Shown: one piece after another, positions 187 to 21,208 of the stretch
How the letters are laid out: each line of letters starts with the position of its first letter
Position numbering within the stretch: the first letter of the stretch is position 1
Virus record (IMG/VR): IMGVR_UViG_3300044799_000355
Span: 1 to 23,501 of that record
Direction: 5' to 3' (one strand)
DNA from: a virus
DNA length: 23,501 nt
Notes under the pieces: generated by a model
What the model was told of the DNA's origin: nothing
What the model saw: only the letters and a program-made list of their open reading frames with translations
Database searches by the model: none
Program-made: the position numbers and the translations under genes

Positions 187-1119
187 CTACCATCCCGCCC
201 GGTCCACCGGCGAGCCCCGCCGGTGCGCCTCAGCCACGTCCTCATCCACTAAACGGATGTATCTCGTTGTGATCGCTATGCCGGCATGCCCCAGGTACTT
301 CGAAATGGTGTAGATGTCTACCCCGTTTCGATACATGGCGATCGCACAACAGCGCCGGAAATCGTGCAGCCCCGGCGCCTTCACGCCCGCGTCCACCGCC
401 CGCCGGCGGACGATCTGCCTCAGCCCGGAGAACGTCAGCCTGTCCTCCTCGTCCGTGGCAAACAGCGGCGAGGATAGCGTCAGGGTTTTGCGACCCTTTA
501 AATACCTCCGTACCGCCCTCCTGCATTTCTCCCCCAATCGTACCAGCCGGAATTTATTCCCCTTACCGTGCCGGATGATCACCTCCCCGCTGGCCAGGTC
601 CACATCCCCCACGTCCAGCGCCACGATCTCTGCCCGCCTGGTGCCCGTATCCACCAGCGTCAGCAAAATCGCCCGATCCCGATCCGCCAGATCGGTCAAA
701 CAGACATCAACCATGCGCTTTACGTTTTCCATGGAAATTCCCAACATCGGCTGCGCCACGACCTTGGGCGGTGCCACCCACTTGATCGGGTTGCGGTATT
801 CCCCCTCGTTTTCACGCTCCCACCATTTCAGGAGCGCCTTGATCGACCGGTAATATACGTGCCGGCCGCCCGGATTATTCCCCTGGGCTTCGAGATATAA
901 CAAAAACTGCCGGATAACATCCGGCGTGAGCTCTTCGAGCTTGATCACCCCCACGTCGTCAAGCCACCCGCAAAACCTGCCCAAAACATCCTTATATAAT
1001 CCGATAGTGCGTGGCGACAACCCCCTTGCCCTGCGTTCCGTCAGAAAATTGCTCACCACATTCCTGACAGTTCCCGCGATGACCTGAAGAATCAGGTGCT
1101 CTACCTCAACTTGAGACAT
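187..1119 (-). CDS. int: Tyrosine recombinase / phage integrase
   Basis: A 310-residue site-specific recombinase of the XerC/XerD/phage integrase family, expected to catalyse attP x attB strand exchange through a covalent 3'-phosphotyrosine. The N-terminal SAM-like core-binding domain covers about residues 18-105 and the catalytic domain about 125-300. The full catalytic set is visible: Arg161 in TGTRRAE, Lys186 in HGKGNK, His252 and Arg255 in LHDFR, His278 in YLGH, and Tyr287 in TTRYI. The length is normal for the family. The ATG at 1117-1119 has a GGGAGG ribosome site about 9 nt upstream. The gene lies directly beside a tRNA-Arg-like segment at 1192-1263, the usual arrangement of integrase and attachment site. 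The start is preceded by a palindrome (1126-1163) that could control expression. Function is confident; the attachment target is inferred from context. Confidence 0.96.
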   Translation of the reverse strand: MSQVEVEHLILQVIAGTVRNVVSNFLTERRARGLSPRTIGLYKDVLGRFCGWLDDVGVIKLEELTPDVIRQFLLYLEAQGNNPGGRHVYYRSIKALLKWWERENEGEYRNPIKWVAPPKVVAQPMLGISMENVKRMVDVCLTDLADRDRAILLTLVDTGTRRAEIVALDVGDVDLASGEVIIRHGKGNKFRLVRLGEKCRRAVRRYLKGRKTLTLSSPLFATDEEDRLTFSGLRQIVRRRAVDAGVKAPGLHDFRRCCAIAMYRNGVDIYTISKYLGHAGIAITTRYIRLVDEDVAEAHRRGSPVDRAGW

Positions 1120-1163: not shown

Positions 1164-1277
1164 CATTCTACCCCTAGATGTGGTGCCTAGGCGCCCCCGG
1201 CGAGATTCGAACTCACAACCACCTGCTTAGAAGGCAGATGCTCTAACCCTCGGACCGTGGCGCAAAAACCACCATAT
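1135..1277. repeat. 13-bp direct repeats flanking the tRNA-like core
   Basis: AAAACCACCATAT occurs at 1135-1147 and again at 1265-1277, one copy on each side of the tRNA-Arg-like segment. Phage attP sites commonly carry short direct repeats (arm-type integrase sites) on both sides of the core, and this pair fits that layout. The spacing between copy starts is 130 bp. Confidence 0.55.
1192..1263 (-). other. tRNA-Arg(TCT) 3' segment, putative attP core
   Basis: On the minus strand the segment folds as the last two thirds of a tRNA. It has an anticodon stem TCTGC/GCAGG with loop CTTCTAA (anticodon TCT, Arg), a 5-nt variable loop, a T arm GTGAG-TTCGAAT-CTCGC, and the 3' acceptor strand CGGGGGC plus G. 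CCA is not encoded. The 5' side is degenerate: the D stem pairs poorly and no GCCCCCG partner for the acceptor exists. A GCGCCAC/GGGGCGC pairing would leave a two-base bulge. This is what a tRNA-derived attachment core looks like: the phage carries the 3' part that restores the host gene on integration. The integrase gene lies just beyond the tRNA 3' end. Alternative: a decayed phage tRNA. Confidence 0.65.
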
Positions 1278-1496
1278 CTAGCCATAGAACTATGTCTGGA
1301 CCCCCGCCTATGGCCGCTTTAATGTGCTATTTATTATTAAAATAAAAGAGTCTGTTGCTCTATCATTATTTAAGGTTGATCATTAATCTCATCAGGGCTG
1401 ACTGTTAGATTATATCATAAAAATTATACCTCAAAAAAGGCCATTCTGGTTTTCGAAATCGAAAGGTTAATGTTCGATTAGAACCGATAAAAACAT
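1278..1496. other. Non-coding region between attachment core and cargo promoter
   Basis: I find no convincing gene here. Visible structure includes the inverted pair GCCATAG (1281-1287) / CTATGGC (1308-1314) beside the attachment core, an AT-rich stretch around 1320-1440, and the operator-like palindromes at 1451-1485. It probably carries the right attP arm and the regulatory region of the rightward operon. Confidence 0.5.
1451..1485. promoter_or_regulatory. Operator-like palindromes upstream of the cargo promoter
   Basis: TTTCGA-AA-TCGAAA (1451-1464) is a perfect 6-bp-arm palindrome. It is followed by GTTC-GATTA-GAAC (1472-1484), nested in GGTT...AACC (1465-1485). Both share a TTCGA core and end 12-46 bp before the -35 box. 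They are plausible sites for a phage repressor or for the ribbon-helix-helix protein encoded at 1915-2130. No binding evidence exists in the sequence itself. Confidence 0.45.
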
Positions 1497-1525
1497 TTGA
1501 CTTTTGTATGTCATAATGATATAAT
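1497..1525 (+). promoter_or_regulatory. Sigma70-type promoter of the cargo operon
   Basis: The -35 box TTGACT (1497-1502) and the -10 box TATAAT (1520-1525) are separated by exactly 17 bp. The predicted start is near 1532, just ahead of an AAAGGA ribosome site (1542-1547) and the ATG at 1556. It should drive 1556-4328 as one transcript. Confidence 0.85.
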
Positions 1526-1555
1526 ATATATATCAATGGATAAAGGAAAATAAAA

Positions 1556-1918
1556 ATGAATATCACAACTCAAAAACAACAAACAAGAGAAAAAGCGCAA
1601 TATTATGTGGAGATATTACAGAAAGAAATGCAGGTTTCGAACTACTACAAAATTGCCAATGATGAGACAGAACGCCAGTATCGCCGGAATGAGGCAAATA
1701 CCTGGCTGCACGTAAAAGAACAGGAAATAAAACAAGCGATAGATATAAGAGACAACATGCCAATACAGGATTATACTGTGATTTCGGTAACCGACTGCTA
1801 CAATGAGCGTGAGACGCTCAAGGCCAATGAATACAAATGGAACCCTGAAAACCGATCATGGTATAAGAAAGTTCTGACGGTGAATGTCGAAGCAGAAATT
1901 GAGGCGATAAAATCATGA
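1556..1918 (+). CDS. Small protein with DUF5710-like C-terminal motif
   Basis: A 120-residue soluble protein, first gene of the rightward operon. The N-terminal 65 residues are charged and helical, with no recognised domain. The C-terminal part contains ETLKANEYKWNPENRSWYKK (about residues 86-105). This resembles the KWxPxxxxWY signature of DUF5710-type modules, which occur in phage and plasmid proteins and are of unknown precise function. The ATG follows AAAGGA with an 8-nt spacer. Its TGA overlaps the next start as ATGA (1915-1918), so the two are probably translationally coupled. The coding sequence is AT-rich like the rest of the cassette. The domain similarity is from memory of the motif and is moderate evidence only. 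Confidence 0.7.
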   Translation: MNITTQKQQTREKAQYYVEILQKEMQVSNYYKIANDETERQYRRNEANTWLHVKEQEIKQAIDIRDNMPIQDYTVISVTDCYNERETLKANEYKWNPENRSWYKKVLTVNVEAEIEAIKS

Positions 1919-2130
1919 AAAAGTTGATCAGCGTCCGTCTTTCAAAATTAACTCTTTGCCAATTGGCGGAATTAGAGCAGGAATTAGGAACCAAACAAGG
2001 CGAAACGATCACCCTGGCAATTGAAAGATTGCATGTAACTATTACTACATCGATCAAAATATTACATGAACAAAAAGATCAAATGAAAAACAATCGGGGA
2101 ATAAATAATGAAAGCATCCTTAAAAATTGA
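1915..2130 (+). CDS. Ribbon-helix-helix-like DNA-binding protein
   Basis: A 71-residue protein. Residues 3-40 fit a ribbon-helix-helix (CopG/Arc/MetJ-type) fold: a short beta strand (KLISVRLS), helix A (LTLCQLAELEQEL), a turn (GTKQGE), and helix B (TITLAIERLHVTI). Proteins of this class bind operators as dimers through the beta ribbon and often autoregulate. It starts in an ATGA overlap with the preceding gene and overlaps the next by 23 nt. The palindromes at 1451-1485 upstream of the operon promoter are candidate operators. It could regulate the cassette or recruit a partner. The fold is inferred from pattern alone. Confidence 0.65.
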   Translation: MKKLISVRLSKLTLCQLAELEQELGTKQGETITLAIERLHVTITTSIKILHEQKDQMKNNRGINNESILKN

Positions 2131-2500
2131 AGCTATAGGCGATAATTCCTTTCAAGAGATGCGATTTTATACAAATATTCTTAATGATGGAGCTCCCGGG
2201 TTAGGTGATCTTCTGGGCGCTCCAAAGCCCGATTATTGGGTGGCTATGATTACTGGATATGATAAAAAATATGGATATTCGCGACAATTTTTAAGGGGCA
2301 AGAAGGATTATAAAAAATCAAACTCAGTTGGCTCGCGTGGTATTTATTTATTCTATTTATTGGATTCTGGTTATATTTATGAAGTAAGCCAACCAATAAC
2401 ATGGCAAAAGACTAGAAGATATTATTGCACTGTAATAGATGATGGTGAAATTATTGAGATCGGAAAGGATTTGGTTGATCAATGGGTAAAAGATCATTAG
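2108..2500 (+). CDS. Unknown protein of the IbrAB-type cassette
   Basis: A 130-residue protein I do not recognise. It is rich in Tyr and Gly, with alternating short strands in the C-terminal half (GIYLFYLLDSGYIYEVSQPI, then YYCTVIDDGEIIEIG), which suggests a small mixed alpha/beta or beta-barrel protein. There is no signal peptide or membrane segment. It overlaps the upstream gene by 23 nt and the IbrA-like gene by 19 nt, so it is embedded in a tightly packed operon and is likely a functional companion of its neighbours. A GGGG stretch lies about 9 nt before the ATG. No catalytic motif is evident. Confidence 0.75.
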   Translation: MKASLKIEAIGDNSFQEMRFYTNILNDGAPGLGDLLGAPKPDYWVAMITGYDKKYGYSRQFLRGKKDYKKSNSVGSRGIYLFYLLDSGYIYEVSQPITWQKTRRYYCTVIDDGEIIEIGKDLVDQWVKDH

Positions 2501-3696
2501 GAATCAATGTGCTGGATGCAGCCAAAGAACGAATAATCTATACGTTTGACCAATTTCCACGCATTTATGTTTCATTCAGTGGCGGAAAAGACAGCACTAT
2601 TATGTTACATTTGGTCATGGATGAGGCAATTAGGCGTGGGCGCAAGGTTGGAGTATTATTTTTGGATTTAGAGGGTCAATATAAATTAACAATCGATCAT
2701 ATTCAAGCTATGTATAATCTTTATGCTGAACACATCGATCCTTATTGGATAGCTCTTCCGATCCACTTGCGCAATGCTGTAAGCATGTATCAGCATCATT
2801 GGATCACATGGGAGCCGGGAAGAGAGAATATATGGATCAGAAAACCACCAGAAATAGCAATAATTGATCAGAATTATTTCCCTTTTTATAGATACAAAAT
2901 GGAATTTGAGGATTTTGTATCGGCATTTGGACATTGGTATAGCCAAAATAAATTATGCGCATGCTTTGTTGGTATTCGCACCGGAGAAAGCCTCAATCGT
3001 TGGCGAACTATTGCATCTACCAAAAAGCAAACCATCGATGGATATAAATGGACCACATGGGTCGGCGAAAGTCTCTATAATATTTATCCGATCTATGATT
3101 GGATTGAAACAGATCTGTGGATTTATCACGGTAAAACCGGCAAACCGTATAATAAACTTTATGATCGGATGTATCAGGCTGGATTAACACTCCATCAAAT
3201 GCGCATCTGCCAGCCTTATGGTGATGATCAACGTAAGGGATTATGGTTATTTCATTTGATAGAACCTGAAACATGGGCGCGTATTGTAGCACGTGTAAAT
3301 GGAGCTAATAGTGGAGCTCTCTATGCAAAGGAAAGTGGTAATATTTTGGGAAATCTACGAATCAGTAAACCAGAAGGGCATACATGGCAATCTTTTGCTG
3401 AATTATTGTTAGAGAGCCTTCCGCCAAAAACAAAAGAACATTTCAAGAATAAAATAGCGGTATTCATCAAATGGTATCAAGATAGAGGATATCCGAATGG
3501 GATACCCGATGAAAGGCCATATAAACAAGAAGCAGCCAGAGAGGTACCATCATGGAGAAGGATATGTAAAATGCTCCTAAGAAATGATTATTGGGCTAAA
3601 GGCATTGGTTTTAGCCAGCATAAAACAGCAGCCTATGAAAAATATTTGAAAATCATGAAGAAACGGAGGCAGCAATGGGGAATATATCCTCCTTGA
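2482..3696 (+). CDS. ibrA: IbrA-like PAPS reductase-family (PP-loop) protein
   Basis: A 404-residue protein of the phosphoadenosine-phosphosulfate reductase/PP-loop ATP-pyrophosphatase superfamily. The PP-loop SGGKDS sits at residues 33-38 and should bind the nucleotide pyrophosphate. Further family landmarks are CFVGIRTGESLNRWRTI (161-177) and YPIYDWIETDLW (202-213). The length matches E. coli IbrA, about 400 residues, and the downstream gene is an IbrB-like protein, so the pair matches the IbrA/IbrB arrangement. In E. coli this pair is known to activate expression of prophage-borne immunoglobulin-binding (eib) genes; the biochemical mechanism is not established to my knowledge. The C-terminal 150 residues are basic and could bind nucleic acid. 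It overlaps the preceding gene by 19 nt and the next by 22 nt. Sulfur chemistry on nucleic acid is possible but speculative. Confidence 0.9.
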   Translation: MGKRSLGINVLDAAKERIIYTFDQFPRIYVSFSGGKDSTIMLHLVMDEAIRRGRKVGVLFLDLEGQYKLTIDHIQAMYNLYAEHIDPYWIALPIHLRNAVSMYQHHWITWEPGRENIWIRKPPEIAIIDQNYFPFYRYKMEFEDFVSAFGHWYSQNKLCACFVGIRTGESLNRWRTIASTKKQTIDGYKWTTWVGESLYNIYPIYDWIETDLWIYHGKTGKPYNKLYDRMYQAGLTLHQMRICQPYGDDQRKGLWLFHLIEPETWARIVARVNGANSGALYAKESGNILGNLRISKPEGHTWQSFAELLLESLPPKTKEHFKNKIAVFIKWYQDRGYPNGIPDERPYKQEAAREVPSWRRICKMLLRNDYWAKGIGFSQHKTAAYEKYLKIMKKRRQQWGIYPP

Positions 3697-4328
3697 TATG
3701 TTCTATAACCGATAAATTCCGCAAGTTAATACCAGAAATACAGGAATTAACTGATGAAGATCGTGTAGAGGCCATTAACCAAATCAAGATTATGTTACAT
3801 GAAATTAGTCCGATGCGCAATGAACCGGTTGATTGTGTTATCTGGGTCCCAATTGATACCGTACAGGCAAACGATTATAATCCAAACCTGGTTGCTCCAC
3901 CAGAAATGCGTCTATTGGAATTAAGTATCGCTGAAGATGGCTATACTCAGCCAATTGTTACCTGGCAGGATAATGGACACCGTGAGGTTGTAGATGGTTT
4001 CCATCGTAACCGCATTGGCAAAGAAAGCAAAAAGATTCGCGATAGAATCAAGGGATATTTACCTGTTACCACAATCAACGATGATCGCACTGACAAAGGC
4101 GATAGGATTGCGGCCACTATCCGACATAACCGAGCTCGTGGAAAACATCTGGTGCAGGGTATGAGCGATGTCGTTTTAGAATTAAAACGACGTAATTGGA
4201 CAGATGATAAAATATGTAATAAATTAGGGATGGATCCTGATGAGGTATTAAGATTAATTCAAATCCAGGGACTTGCCGAAATGTTTGCTGATCAGGAATT
4301 TAGTGAAGCATGGGAAATTGATTTATAA
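3675..4328 (+). CDS. ibrB: IbrB-like ParB/sulfiredoxin-fold protein
   Basis: A 217-residue protein with the ParB-N/IbrB fold. Diagnostic segments in order are NDYNPN (66-71), EDGYTQPI (87-94), VDGFHR (106-111, at the place of the GERR-type nucleotide motif of ParB), ATIRHNRARGKH (147-158), an HTH-like stretch LGMDPDEVLRL (184-194), and FSEAW (209-213). This pattern is typical of IbrB, the partner of IbrA. ParB-family folds bind and hydrolyse CTP or act on DNA; which applies here is unknown. The ATG at 3675 has GGAGG five nt upstream (3665-3669) and lies within the end of the ibrA-like gene, which indicates coupled synthesis. The stop codon TAA overlaps the stop of the convergent lysin gene in the palindrome TTATAA (4323-4328). 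Confidence 0.9.
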   Translation: MGNISSLICSITDKFRKLIPEIQELTDEDRVEAINQIKIMLHEISPMRNEPVDCVIWVPIDTVQANDYNPNLVAPPEMRLLELSIAEDGYTQPIVTWQDNGHREVVDGFHRNRIGKESKKIRDRIKGYLPVTTINDDRTDKGDRIAATIRHNRARGKHLVQGMSDVVLELKRRNWTDDKICNKLGMDPDEVLRLIQIQGLAEMFADQEFSEAWEIDL

Positions 4329-5027
4329 ACTTTCGATCCTGCTATACTCCCTCATCCCCACATTCACCGCAAACCACCAGAAACTACTCCTGGCCCAGAT
4401 ATCCCCATTATTCATCGCCCTGATCTCATCCACCGCGATCGGCGGACAGGTCATATACATCACCCCATAAATCGTCGATGATATCATCGGCGCTGACCTC
4501 ATATTGACCCCGCCCAGCATTTTAGCCGTCTTTTGCCCCTCTACCACTGGTGGGAGAGGGGTTAGGGGTGAGGGCCTGGCCAAAAAAAACAACAACGGAT
4601 TAACATATCCCTTATACCCGCTGGAATCCGCTTTCTCCTTTTTCGGGTCCTTCAATCCCAGGTACAGGTGCGTCCCGGTGGCATAGCCCGTCGCTCCCAC
4701 CGTCCCGATCACATCGCCGGCCTTCACCTTCTGCCCCAGCTCGACGATGATATCCATCAGATGCGCATAATATACCCACCAGCCATTCGGCAGCAGCCCC
4801 CGGATATAGTTTCCATACCCCTCATCCTCGAAACCGACTTTGTTTATCCTGGTATCGCATACCGACAGCACCACATCCCCGGCCCAGCCCGCAAAATCAA
4901 TCCCATTATGGCCAGGGTACGACCAGCCCGGATGCAGGCTCACATCCTGATACCAGGCCGCATTCTCCCCATAATACTGCGTAATGGTGATCGGCTCTCT
5001 TACCGGGTAAACCAGCCCCAAATCCAT
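4323..5027 (-). CDS. M23-family peptidase with SH3-like tail (phage lysin)
   Basis: A 234-residue protein, last gene of the late operon. Residues about 10-145 form a lysostaphin-type M23 metallopeptidase domain: GHNGID gives the zinc ligands His40 and Asp44, and YYAHL gives His89. The usual HxH is HLY (120-122), so the last histidine, normally a zinc ligand, is Tyr. The enzyme may be inactive, use another ligand, or act as a binding module. Residues 151-165 (RPSPLTPLPPVVEGQ) are encoded by a dispersed repeat that sits in frame as a linker. Residues 167-225 look like a bacterial SH3 domain (GGVNMRSAP...IWARS). The position after a holin-like gene suggests peptidoglycan degradation at lysis. 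A tail-tip lysin is an alternative. Confidence 0.85.
   Translation of the reverse strand: MDLGLVYPVREPITITQYYGENAAWYQDVSLHPGWSYPGHNGIDFAGWAGDVVLSVCDTRINKVGFEDEGYGNYIRGLLPNGWWVYYAHLMDIIVELGQKVKAGDVIGTVGATGYATGTHLYLGLKDPKKEKADSSGYKGYVNPLLFFLARPSPLTPLPPVVEGQKTAKMLGGVNMRSAPMISSTIYGVMYMTCPPIAVDEIRAMNNGDIWARSSFWWFAVNVGMREYSRIESL
4535..4576 (-). repeat. Family A dyad repeat, copy 1 (inside the lysin gene)
   Basis: Arms GCCCCTCTACCA / TGGGAGAGGGG are followed by the tail TTAGGGGTGAGGGC. It lies entirely within the lysin coding sequence and is translated as residues 151-165, between the peptidase and SH3-like domains, without disrupting the frame. Confidence 0.85.
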
Positions 5028-5052: not shown

Positions 5053-5160
5053 CCCCTCTCCCATTTTTTATGGGAGAGGGGCCAGGGGTGAGGGCGTTTT
5101 CCCCTCGCCCTTAGCGGTGGGATTTATCCCACCTAAGGGAGAGGGGCCAGGGGTGAGGGC
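5053..5160 (-). repeat. Family A dyad repeats, copies 2 and 3 (tandem)
   Basis: Copy 2 (5053-5095) has CCCCTCTCCCAT / ATGGGAGAGGGG arms plus the tail CCAGGGGTGAGGGC. Copy 3 (5101-5160) carries the same outer arms with an inner palindrome GGTGGGAT-TT-ATCCCACC and the same tail. They fill the gap between the holin-like and lysin genes. Confidence 0.9.
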
Positions 5161-9636: not shown

Positions 9637-9698
9637 CTCCCCTCTCCCTTAGCGGGGGGATTTATCCCCCCTTTGGTAAAGGGGTCGGGGGTGAGGGC
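9637..9698 (-). repeat. Family A dyad repeat, copy 5
   Basis: CCCCTCTCCC arm, inner TTAGCGGGGGGAT / ATCCCCCC palindrome, a degenerate closing arm GTAAAGGGG, then the tail TCGGGGGTGAGGGC. It occupies the gap between the tape measure gene and the Dit-like gene. Confidence 0.85.
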
Positions 9699-15458: not shown

Positions 15459-16591
15459 TTATTTTCCCTTCTCTCTTCTCCCTTCTCCCGCTTTTTGCGG
15501 GAGAAGGGCTGGGGATGAGGGCCTACCTTAGCCAACGCCTTCTTACCACCTAGCGCGGTCGTCAATTTGTCATACTCGCCCAAGTAATTTATATTCTCAT
15601 GGAAAATCCCCAGTTGTGCGCCGGTGTCGTATGCCAGTTTTCCATATTCCAGCAGAAATTGGCGCAGTTGGTTGAGCGCCTCATTGCGCCCGGTTTGTTT
15701 CCAAACGTTCCAGACGTATTCTGCTTTTCCGCTGGCTTTGAACATCTTCTCTCGCACGCCCTCCCCGTCTTGCTGCGCTTGAGCGGAAGTCCGCTCGAAT
15801 TCCTGGCGTGAGATCATGTTGCTTCGTTTGCTGTAGCGTTCGGCTTCCGCCAGCACTGCCGCAGTCTCACCGGTTGCCAGCGCTGCCAGTTCAAAATCGC
15901 TGGTTAGCCTGGCCACGGTCCCAAAATCGTTTTTATACATCGCATCGTCAATTTTTTCTTTGATTCTCGTCAGCGCCAGATCGTTTATCTTCCACGCTTT
16001 ATCGTGGATGGCGGCACGTTGCTCGAAAAATTCTTTACCAATCTGTTTCTCGCCCTCGTATCCATAAATTGGCTGCTCGAATTCGTCTTGCCAACAGCAT
16101 AGTTTTAGATTGATTCCCTTCCCATGCGCAAATCCGATCCAGTAGGCATAATTGATCGCCTGGTATTGGTACTCGGTATTGCTGGTTAGCTCACTACCAT
16201 ATAGGCTGATGTCTGTGTAGCCCAGGTAGATTGCCAGCGCCAGGGCCATAGCCGGGCTGGATCGTAGATATCTATAGGGAATCTGTGCCAGCACCCCTTC
16301 GATGGGATAAGTTACCGAGTTTGGCACTCGCTCATCCGCTTCGATCATGTAGATTTTCTTACCGGGATGCTCTTGTTGTAACCAGGCCCAATGCTCCTTA
16401 TTGTTCCAATTTTCGAGGCTGGTATATACTTCCTTTTTGTGCATCTGTAAACATATGTCCCAACGCGGATATTTCTCTGGCGCCTGTGGAGCTTCATTGA
16501 ATAGCCAGATTTCCACATTTGGGTCGTCCCAGGGGACGAGTTCACGCCCCCTGGGATTGCTGCCCACTATTGCCAATGGGCGGTCTATCAT
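15455..16591 (-). CDS. MptE/DUF115-like Rossmann protein in the head module
   Basis: A 378-residue protein. Residues 1-180 look like the DUF115/MptE-like Rossmann superfamily, which includes motility accessory proteins and sugar- or pterin-nucleotide enzymes: LAIVGSNPRGRELVPWDDPN with a Gly-rich turn, VEIWLFNEAP, SSPAMALALAIYLGYTDISLYGSEL (130-154), and INYAYWIGFAHGKGI. Residues 185-350 are a helical coiled-coil region rich in Glu, Ala and Lys. The enzyme reaction is unknown; modification of capsid or host sugars is one possibility and a scaffold-like role for the coiled coil is another. Residues 357-371 (GPHPQPFSRKKREKG) are translated from a family A repeat, so the C-terminal tail was replaced or extended by repeat insertion. 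TGATG overlap upstream, ATGA downstream. Confidence 0.7.
   Translation of the reverse strand: MIDRPLAIVGSNPRGRELVPWDDPNVEIWLFNEAPQAPEKYPRWDICLQMHKKEVYTSLENWNNKEHWAWLQQEHPGKKIYMIEADERVPNSVTYPIEGVLAQIPYRYLRSSPAMALALAIYLGYTDISLYGSELTSNTEYQYQAINYAYWIGFAHGKGINLKLCCWQDEFEQPIYGYEGEKQIGKEFFEQRAAIHDKAWKINDLALTRIKEKIDDAMYKNDFGTVARLTSDFELAALATGETAAVLAEAERYSKRSNMISRQEFERTSAQAQQDGEGVREKMFKASGKAEYVWNVWKQTGRNEALNQLRQFLLEYGKLAYDTGAQLGIFHENINYLGEYDKLTTALGGKKALAKVGPHPQPFSRKKREKGEERRENK
15480..15522 (-). repeat. Family A dyad repeat, copy 8 (inside a coding C-terminus)
   Basis: CCCTTCTCCCGC / GCGGGAGAAGGG arms with the tail CTGGGGATGAGGGC. It encodes residues 357-371 of the MptE/DUF115-like protein and lies just before the ribosome site of the connector gene. 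It differs from the other copies by A substitutions (AAGGG arms, GGGGATGAGGG tail). Confidence 0.85.
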
Positions 16592-21150: not shown

Positions 21151-21208
21151 CCCCTCTCCCGAAGGGGGGATAAATCCCCCCTTCGGGAGAGGGGCCGGGG
21201 GTGAGGGC
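21151..21208 (-). repeat. Family A dyad repeat, copy 9, perfect 21-bp hairpin
   Basis: The arm 21151-21171 (CCCCTCTCCCGAAGGGGGGA plus T) is the exact reverse complement of 21174-21194, with only AA between. The tail CCGGGGGTGAGGGC follows at 21195-21208. It is the most intact copy in the window and stands between the large terminase and the portal-side genes. In RNA it would form a very stable hairpin. Confidence 0.92.

Follow-up and report, generated by a model that had tools for sequence, protein, structure and literature searches.

The closest described relatives of the locus studied here are the IbrA and IbrB proteins of Escherichia coli, which are reported, in papers citing Sandt (2002), to activate the eib genes of prophages in strain ECOR-9. 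We analysed one IMG/VR virus record, IMGVR_UViG_3300044799_000355, whose whole stretch of 23,501 bases is called the window below; in it an ibrA-ibrB pair lies in a five-gene cassette, directly behind the gene of a 130-residue protein, p130. IbrAB is known by name in phages and has been treated in the literature on Asgard archaeal and Flavobacterium elements.

The E. coli pair of the ECOR-9 island and that of phage PhiR5_2 belong to the same families as the window pair, with the same order and overlapping genes, and the PhiR5_2 IbrA is 52% identical to the window IbrA. For the chromosomal enterobacterial IbrA proteins the identity is about 46-50%. E. coli K-12 has YbdN and YbdM, likewise a DUF3440 protein resembling 3'-phosphoadenosine 5'-phosphosulfate (PAPS) reductase together with a ParB-like protein (PMC9068703); unlike the window pair, it is chromosomal, has a LysR regulator nearby and has no third gene. 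The enterobacterial loci (E. coli phage PhiR5_2, the chromosomal ybdNM type and Klebsiella) contain neither p130 nor a second small protein, called X below, whereas the window pair is joined to p130 and occupies the interval between a phage attachment site and the lysis genes. An earlier interpretation of the window from its letters alone (the sequence-only reading) had named the 130-residue protein as a component additional to the E. coli pair, and the comparison agrees with this.

Two DNA modification systems have a similar pairing. In DndC/DndB phosphorothioation, a PP-loop enzyme is accompanied by the ParB-superfamily protein DndB, for which nucleotide degradation has been proposed (PMC10853773), and in DpdA/DpdB 7-deazaguanine DNA modification the modification enzyme works with a ParB-like ATPase (PMC12839542). 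By analogy, the pairing of a PP-loop enzyme with a ParB/Srx protein in IbrAB would follow the logic of both systems while belonging to neither. IbrA has a weak DndC match (2e-7), but the cassette lacks DndA, DndD and DndE, a conserved multi-cysteine iron-sulfur set was not found in IbrA, and IbrA is not an enzyme of the tRNA-guanine transglycosylase (TGT) type as DpdA is.

A third component in the IbrAB loci

The p130 gene is present in 22 of the 167 loci retrieved with IbrA, nearly always directly upstream of ibrA and overlapping it. When viral contigs were scanned with p130 alone, 28 loci were found (four of them already among the IbrA-found loci), and ibrA-ibrB lies just downstream in 27. 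The exception is L206, where p130 has no ibrAB neighbours, and Streptococcus phage PH15 has a weakly similar protein that is likewise without them. A p130-IbrA-IbrB set is also present in Chlorobiaceae phage CV-1-33 (MT192033). This gene linkage points to p130 as a dedicated, conserved third component of this type of IbrAB.

Protein X, of about 130 residues and unrelated to p130, is found in 70 other IbrA loci. Its gene mostly separates ibrB from ibrA or precedes ibrA, and in 10 loci X is fused to IbrB. The two small proteins occur together in none of the IbrA-found loci, and X is also absent from the new loci found with p130. On the IbrA tree the p130 and X labels need three changes; therefore, the small-subunit slot has changed its occupant at more than one point, although there are few independent events. 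Among the deep-branch IbrA loci, 12 of 32 have a SNF2-like helicase gene directly upstream of ibrA, and p130 and X are absent from these, the helicase replacing them in a third, distant IbrAB group. A small third protein found almost nowhere outside IbrAB loci suggests that IbrAB acts in a DNA-handling complex with interchangeable small subunits. Both the dedication of p130 and X to IbrAB and their mutual exclusion appear to be undescribed in the openly searchable literature, which covers few subscription journals.

The p130 protein belongs to phrog_26647, a family of unknown function. Its AlphaFold2 model (predicted local distance difference test, pLDDT, 93) had no match in the PDB at E <0.01 with Foldseek and matched only uncharacterised viral models, which in itself does not prove a new fold. 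A relation to the AFV1 ORF157-type nuclease was considered because it gave the best, though weak, VIA fold match (Z 4.7), but profile-profile comparison lent it no support, the hhalign probability being <1% both with a single p130 sequence and with a family of three. Likewise, hhalign found no relation that would make p130, X and a phrog_27058-like protein one family.

The genes upstream of p130 behave differently from it. The sequence-only reading had proposed that a five-gene order might recur with ibrAB, with the ribbon-helix-helix (RHH)-like and 120-residue proteins among its components. Co-occurrence was found for p130; for the other two it was not, and the five-gene order was rejected, since p130-ibrA-ibrB alone is conserved in other phages and loci. 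The gene upstream of p130 varies between loci. The 120-residue protein has no relative in the viral contigs or in any retrieved locus, and its likeness to DUF5710 (E 0.065) is below the curated cut-off. The RHH-like gene is sporadic, being seen in the window, in a short gene of L089, in the C-terminal part of an L190 protein and at the start of a long protein of phage G001 (by eye only). The 71-residue protein itself matches phrog_876, a transcriptional repressor family, at E 0.011, with no significant RHH match in Pfam and no sequence match in the PDB; it is probably the operon's own regulator.

Features of IbrA and IbrB

The identity of IbrA as a PAPS-reductase-like protein, first proposed from its PP-loop, is borne out by the profiles DUF3440 (8e-34, 117 bits against a cut-off of 25), PAPS_reduct (2.6e-15, 57 bits against 22.5) and phrog_2302 (1e-89). 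These scores place IbrA squarely within the DUF3440 family. In its AlphaFold2 model (pLDDT 88), the first 260 residues match flavin adenine dinucleotide (FAD) synthase, adenosine 5'-phosphosulfate (APS) and PAPS reductases, and the ATP-sulfurylase subunit CysD with Z values of 14-16, and the predicted fold is a PP-loop fold of the PAPS-reductase/FAD-synthase type. The invariant residues in 60 IbrA relatives include S33, GKDS at 35-38, D62, E64, R166, E169, S170 and R173, together with Y202, P203, Y205, D206, D211 and W213. IbrA retains the complete PP-loop and the motifs R..ES..R and YP.YDW...D.W. On the other hand, the catalytic tail of PAPS reductase is missing, and the domain runs into DUF3440 instead. 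The scores also stay far below the cut-offs of the reductase equivalog TIGR02057 (28.9 bits against 254) and of the DndC equivalog (27.2 against 290.4), and the profile matches to DndC, a DNA-sulfur enzyme, and to BrxP are weak. Only two columns are cysteine in at least 90% of the 60 rows, C243 and the residue-372 column, and the window IbrA has no cysteine in the latter. A conserved multi-cysteine set of iron-sulfur ligands was not found in this 60-row alignment.

For IbrB, the ParB-like identity and the position next to ibrA that had been read from the sequence were confirmed by phrog_2159 (6e-73) and by the loci themselves, with ibrB adjoining ibrA in 165 of the 167 retrieved by IbrA. Its invariant motifs are N.YNPN, DGFHR and NRARG, and among solved structures its profile matches ParB, Noc and SbnI. 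The ParB_N domain (PF02195) is detected at 1e-3 in 20 of 32 IbrB family members, the window IbrB alone being below the threshold; thus the ParB N-terminal profile and the conserved motif that mark the ParB/Srx superfamily are present at the level of the family. In nine loci (L020, L052, L057, L063, L078, L128, L158, L166 and L167), a gene of an acetyltransferase of the Gcn5-related N-acetyltransferase (GNAT) type lies beside or between ibrA and ibrB.

Organisation and origin of the cassette

The window contains an integrase gene, an attachment (att)-like site, a minus-strand late operon and the terminase genes at the right end. Five plus-strand genes (1556-4328) fill the interval between the att-like site and the lysis genes, and successive genes overlap by 4-23 nt in the open reading frame calls. 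These coordinates agree with an overlapping operon opposite in direction to the late operon, as first proposed. Table 1 lists the features.

Table 1. Positions of the cassette and its neighbouring features in the window.
Feature	Position	Strand	Evidence
Tyrosine integrase, adjoining the att site	187-1119	-	Phage_integrase 1.8e-30
attP-like site	1190-1261	-	3' 59 nt (1190-1248) of tRNA-Arg (TCT); 5' part diverged
Promoter-like site, sigma70-type	1497-1525	+	TTGACT-17-TATAAT, extended -10, 11/12 matches
120-residue protein	1556-1918	+	DUF5710-like C-terminal motif below threshold; relatives not found
71-residue RHH-like protein	1915-2130	+	Sequence pattern only
p130, 130 residues	2108-2500	+	phrog_26647 1.4e-5; ibrA-ibrB linkage
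IbrA, 404 residues	2482-3696	+	PP-loop ATP pyrophosphatase domain (SGGKDS at 33-38) plus DUF3440
IbrB, 217 residues	3675-4328	+	ParB/Srx-like, DGFHR and NRARG motifs
M23 endolysin, end of late operon	4323-5027	-	Peptidase_M23 2e-21

When the intergenic region is shuffled with its dinucleotides kept, 0.9% of the shuffles contain a promoter-like site of equal quality, and 0.1% do so with the TG of the extended -10 included. This strong promoter-like site agrees with the promoter named in the sequence-only reading. At the other end of the cassette, ibrB and the endolysin gene are convergent and meet tail to tail, with a 6-nt overlap (4323-4328) within the last endolysin codons. Through this overlap antisense late transcripts could enter ibrAB.

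The GC content of the cassette (1280-4328) is 37.7% compared with 52.7% for the rest of the window, and no other downstream stretch of the same length is below 49.7%. At third codon positions (GC3), the five cassette genes have 27-44%, and the integrase, endolysin, tape measure, capsid, portal and terminase genes have 60-74%. The break in composition falls at the att site and at the ibrB end. This difference in GC content marks the cassette as foreign-looking and probably horizontally acquired cargo. Queries with the tail, integrase and terminase proteins retrieved no close relatives of this phage with or without the cassette, except a short fragment overlapping the terminase end. This fragment, a 5-kb contig from another metagenome (L212, IMGVR_UViG_3300032163_000863), agrees at 100% with the final 21 residues of the window terminase, and is possibly the same phage occurring elsewhere.

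The att-like site was not called as a tRNA by ARAGORN; with cmscan, the Rfam tRNA model hits the minus strand at 1192-1261 with 29.7 bits, as a degenerate tRNA. Exactly 59 nt (1190-1248) match tRNA genes in four unrelated genomes at 75-81%, and three of these genes are complete tRNA-Arg (TCT) genes. It looks like the pattern expected of a phage attachment site (attP) that contains a tRNA gene's 3' portion. The proposed location of the cargo beside the attachment site is supported. Since the integrase and the cassette flank the site on opposite sides, the cassette would sit at the end of an integrated prophage far from the integrase.

A dispersed GC-rich repeat, GGGAGAGGGGNNAGGGGTGAGG, occurs with at most 3 mismatches at 4552-4573, 5072-5093, 5137-5158, 9675-9696, 15499-15520 and 21185-21206. 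It is absent from shuffles and lies mostly in late-gene gaps, with one copy within the endolysin open reading frame.

Genomic contexts of ibrAB

Records matching IbrA number 216 among phages and 724 among plasmids. In the related phage G001, a contig with overlapping end sequences, p130-ibrA-ibrB has the same relation to a minus-strand late operon, with an integrase upstream that is 32% identical to that of the window. In Lactobacillus and Streptococcus phages, ibrAB is found between the lysis genes and the cro/antirepressor genes. Many other phages have ibrAB in the early DNA-replication region, and therefore the cargo-site location is recurrent, not universal. Helicase genes are also neighbours of ibrAB in phages of Lactobacillus, Streptococcus and Fusobacterium.

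In Fusobacterium phage phiFN37 (L209, 1680-9296), the genes of an integrase, IbrA, IbrB and a small protein share a region of 8 kb with those of a helicase, a further ParB-like protein and a Dpd-like queuine tRNA-ribosyltransferase. IbrAB lies near a ParB-like/TGT pair there, and two nucleic-acid modification modules may adjoin. In archaea, the IbrAB loci of a Heimdallarchaeota contig (L135, 5957-6796) and a Methanophagales contig (L154, 1308-2015) lie next to shared gene families, one of which, in the former, belongs to the RAMP superfamily (Cas7-like).

Discussion

We tentatively favour the reading of the cassette as a lysogenic-conversion element for a nucleotide-driven complex that modifies nucleic acid and in which p130 fixes the target, although its probability stays somewhat short of even. 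Transcribed from its own promoter, and probably repressed by its RHH-like protein, the cassette would give a three-subunit complex of p130, IbrA and IbrB. The PP-loop of IbrA would bind ATP and activate a substrate by adenylylation in a site of the PAPS-reductase/FAD-synthase type without the reductase's tail, and IbrB, of the ParB/Srx superfamily, would be its partner NTPase. The target or specificity would be set by p130, in the slot held by X or the SNF2-like helicase in other IbrAB types. The complex may then modify a nucleic acid, most likely DNA, and the altered prophage gene expression seen in E. coli would then follow from this modification.

A nucleic-acid modification complex is favoured because a PP-loop and ParB/Srx pair in the company of replication, helicase and methyltransferase genes resembles DndC/DndB and DpdA/DpdB. 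The p130-ibrAB linkage, the exclusion of p130 and X, the X-IbrB fusions and the SNF2-like helicase context support this reading, and we also count for it the GC and GC3 break, the IbrA fold, the weak DndC profile match, the ParB and SbnI matches of IbrB, and the methyltransferase and replication neighbours. That the cassette modifies or senses nucleic acid, as the sequence-only reading proposed, stands as inference only, from these neighbours and from PP-loop plus ParB/Srx chemistry.

Several points weigh against it. DNA methyltransferases, exonucleases, helicase loaders and primases head the list of viral ibrAB neighbours in the neighbour census, but this census had no control set and is suggestive only; early phage regions always contain such DNA-handling genes. 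The cassette contains no DndA-like desulfurase, methyltransferase or nuclease, and sulfur chemistry by IbrA is doubtful because C243 is the only near-invariant cysteine that the window IbrA keeps. On plasmids, ibrAB is found near adhesin and regulator genes (PerC, LysR and AraC). The K-12 ybdNM genes belong to the CitR regulon and are close to citrate genes (PMC9068703). Both settings would suit a regulator just as well.

These regulatory neighbours lead to the strongest alternative, which we regard as credible though unlikely: a pair of transcriptional co-activators that modifies nothing, in which IbrB binds DNA like ParB, IbrA senses ATP or an adenylyl-nucleotide, and p130 adjusts which promoter is chosen. 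The activation of eib is the sole reported IbrAB phenotype, and the plasmid regulators and adhesins and the ParB and Noc matches of IbrB all suit such a role. A sensor, however, would not need the complete set of PP-loop, R..ES..R and YP.YDW...D.W motifs kept by IbrA, and the SNF2-like helicase and replication-module context recurs.

An anti-phage system acting against superinfection, which would sense or mark incoming DNA or drain nucleotides through the ParB/Srx enzyme, is more unlikely still. Its cargo place beside attP, convergent with the lysis genes and likewise in phage G001, is suited to it, as is the position in Lactobacillus and Streptococcus phages, where lysis genes lie on one side and cro/antirepressor genes on the other; the weak DndC and BrxP matches and the degradation of nucleotides proposed for DndB point the same way. 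But the cassette matched no defence system as a whole in PADLOC, it has no effector nuclease, and many carriers hold ibrAB in the early replication region and not at the cargo site. A role of IbrA as a PAPS-reductase-like enzyme of auxiliary sulfur or nucleotide metabolism, to which its PAPS_reduct match and the phage annotations naming PAPS reductase would point, is very improbable given the DUF3440 region in place of the catalytic cysteine tail, scores far under the reductase cut-offs and the near-constant linkage to IbrB.

Extending the favoured modification reading to the whole family is a bolder step that we consider doubtful. IbrAB would then be the core of an undescribed nucleic-acid-modifying family with interchangeable partners (p130, X, or the SNF2-like helicase with another small protein), carrying out adenylylation-driven DNA modification outside Dnd, Ssp, Dpd and BREX.

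The IbrAB family is already known, and the dedicated, exchangeable third subunit appears to be new with respect to the literature that could be searched. IbrA and IbrB are present in hundreds of sequenced phages and plasmids, and their biochemistry has been unexplained since the E. coli study of 2002. A dedicated third subunit, which excludes an unrelated protein from the slot they share, provides a concrete complex to purify and points to an activity on DNA more than to regulation alone. With p130 and X, the old question of how IbrAB alters prophage expression becomes testable.

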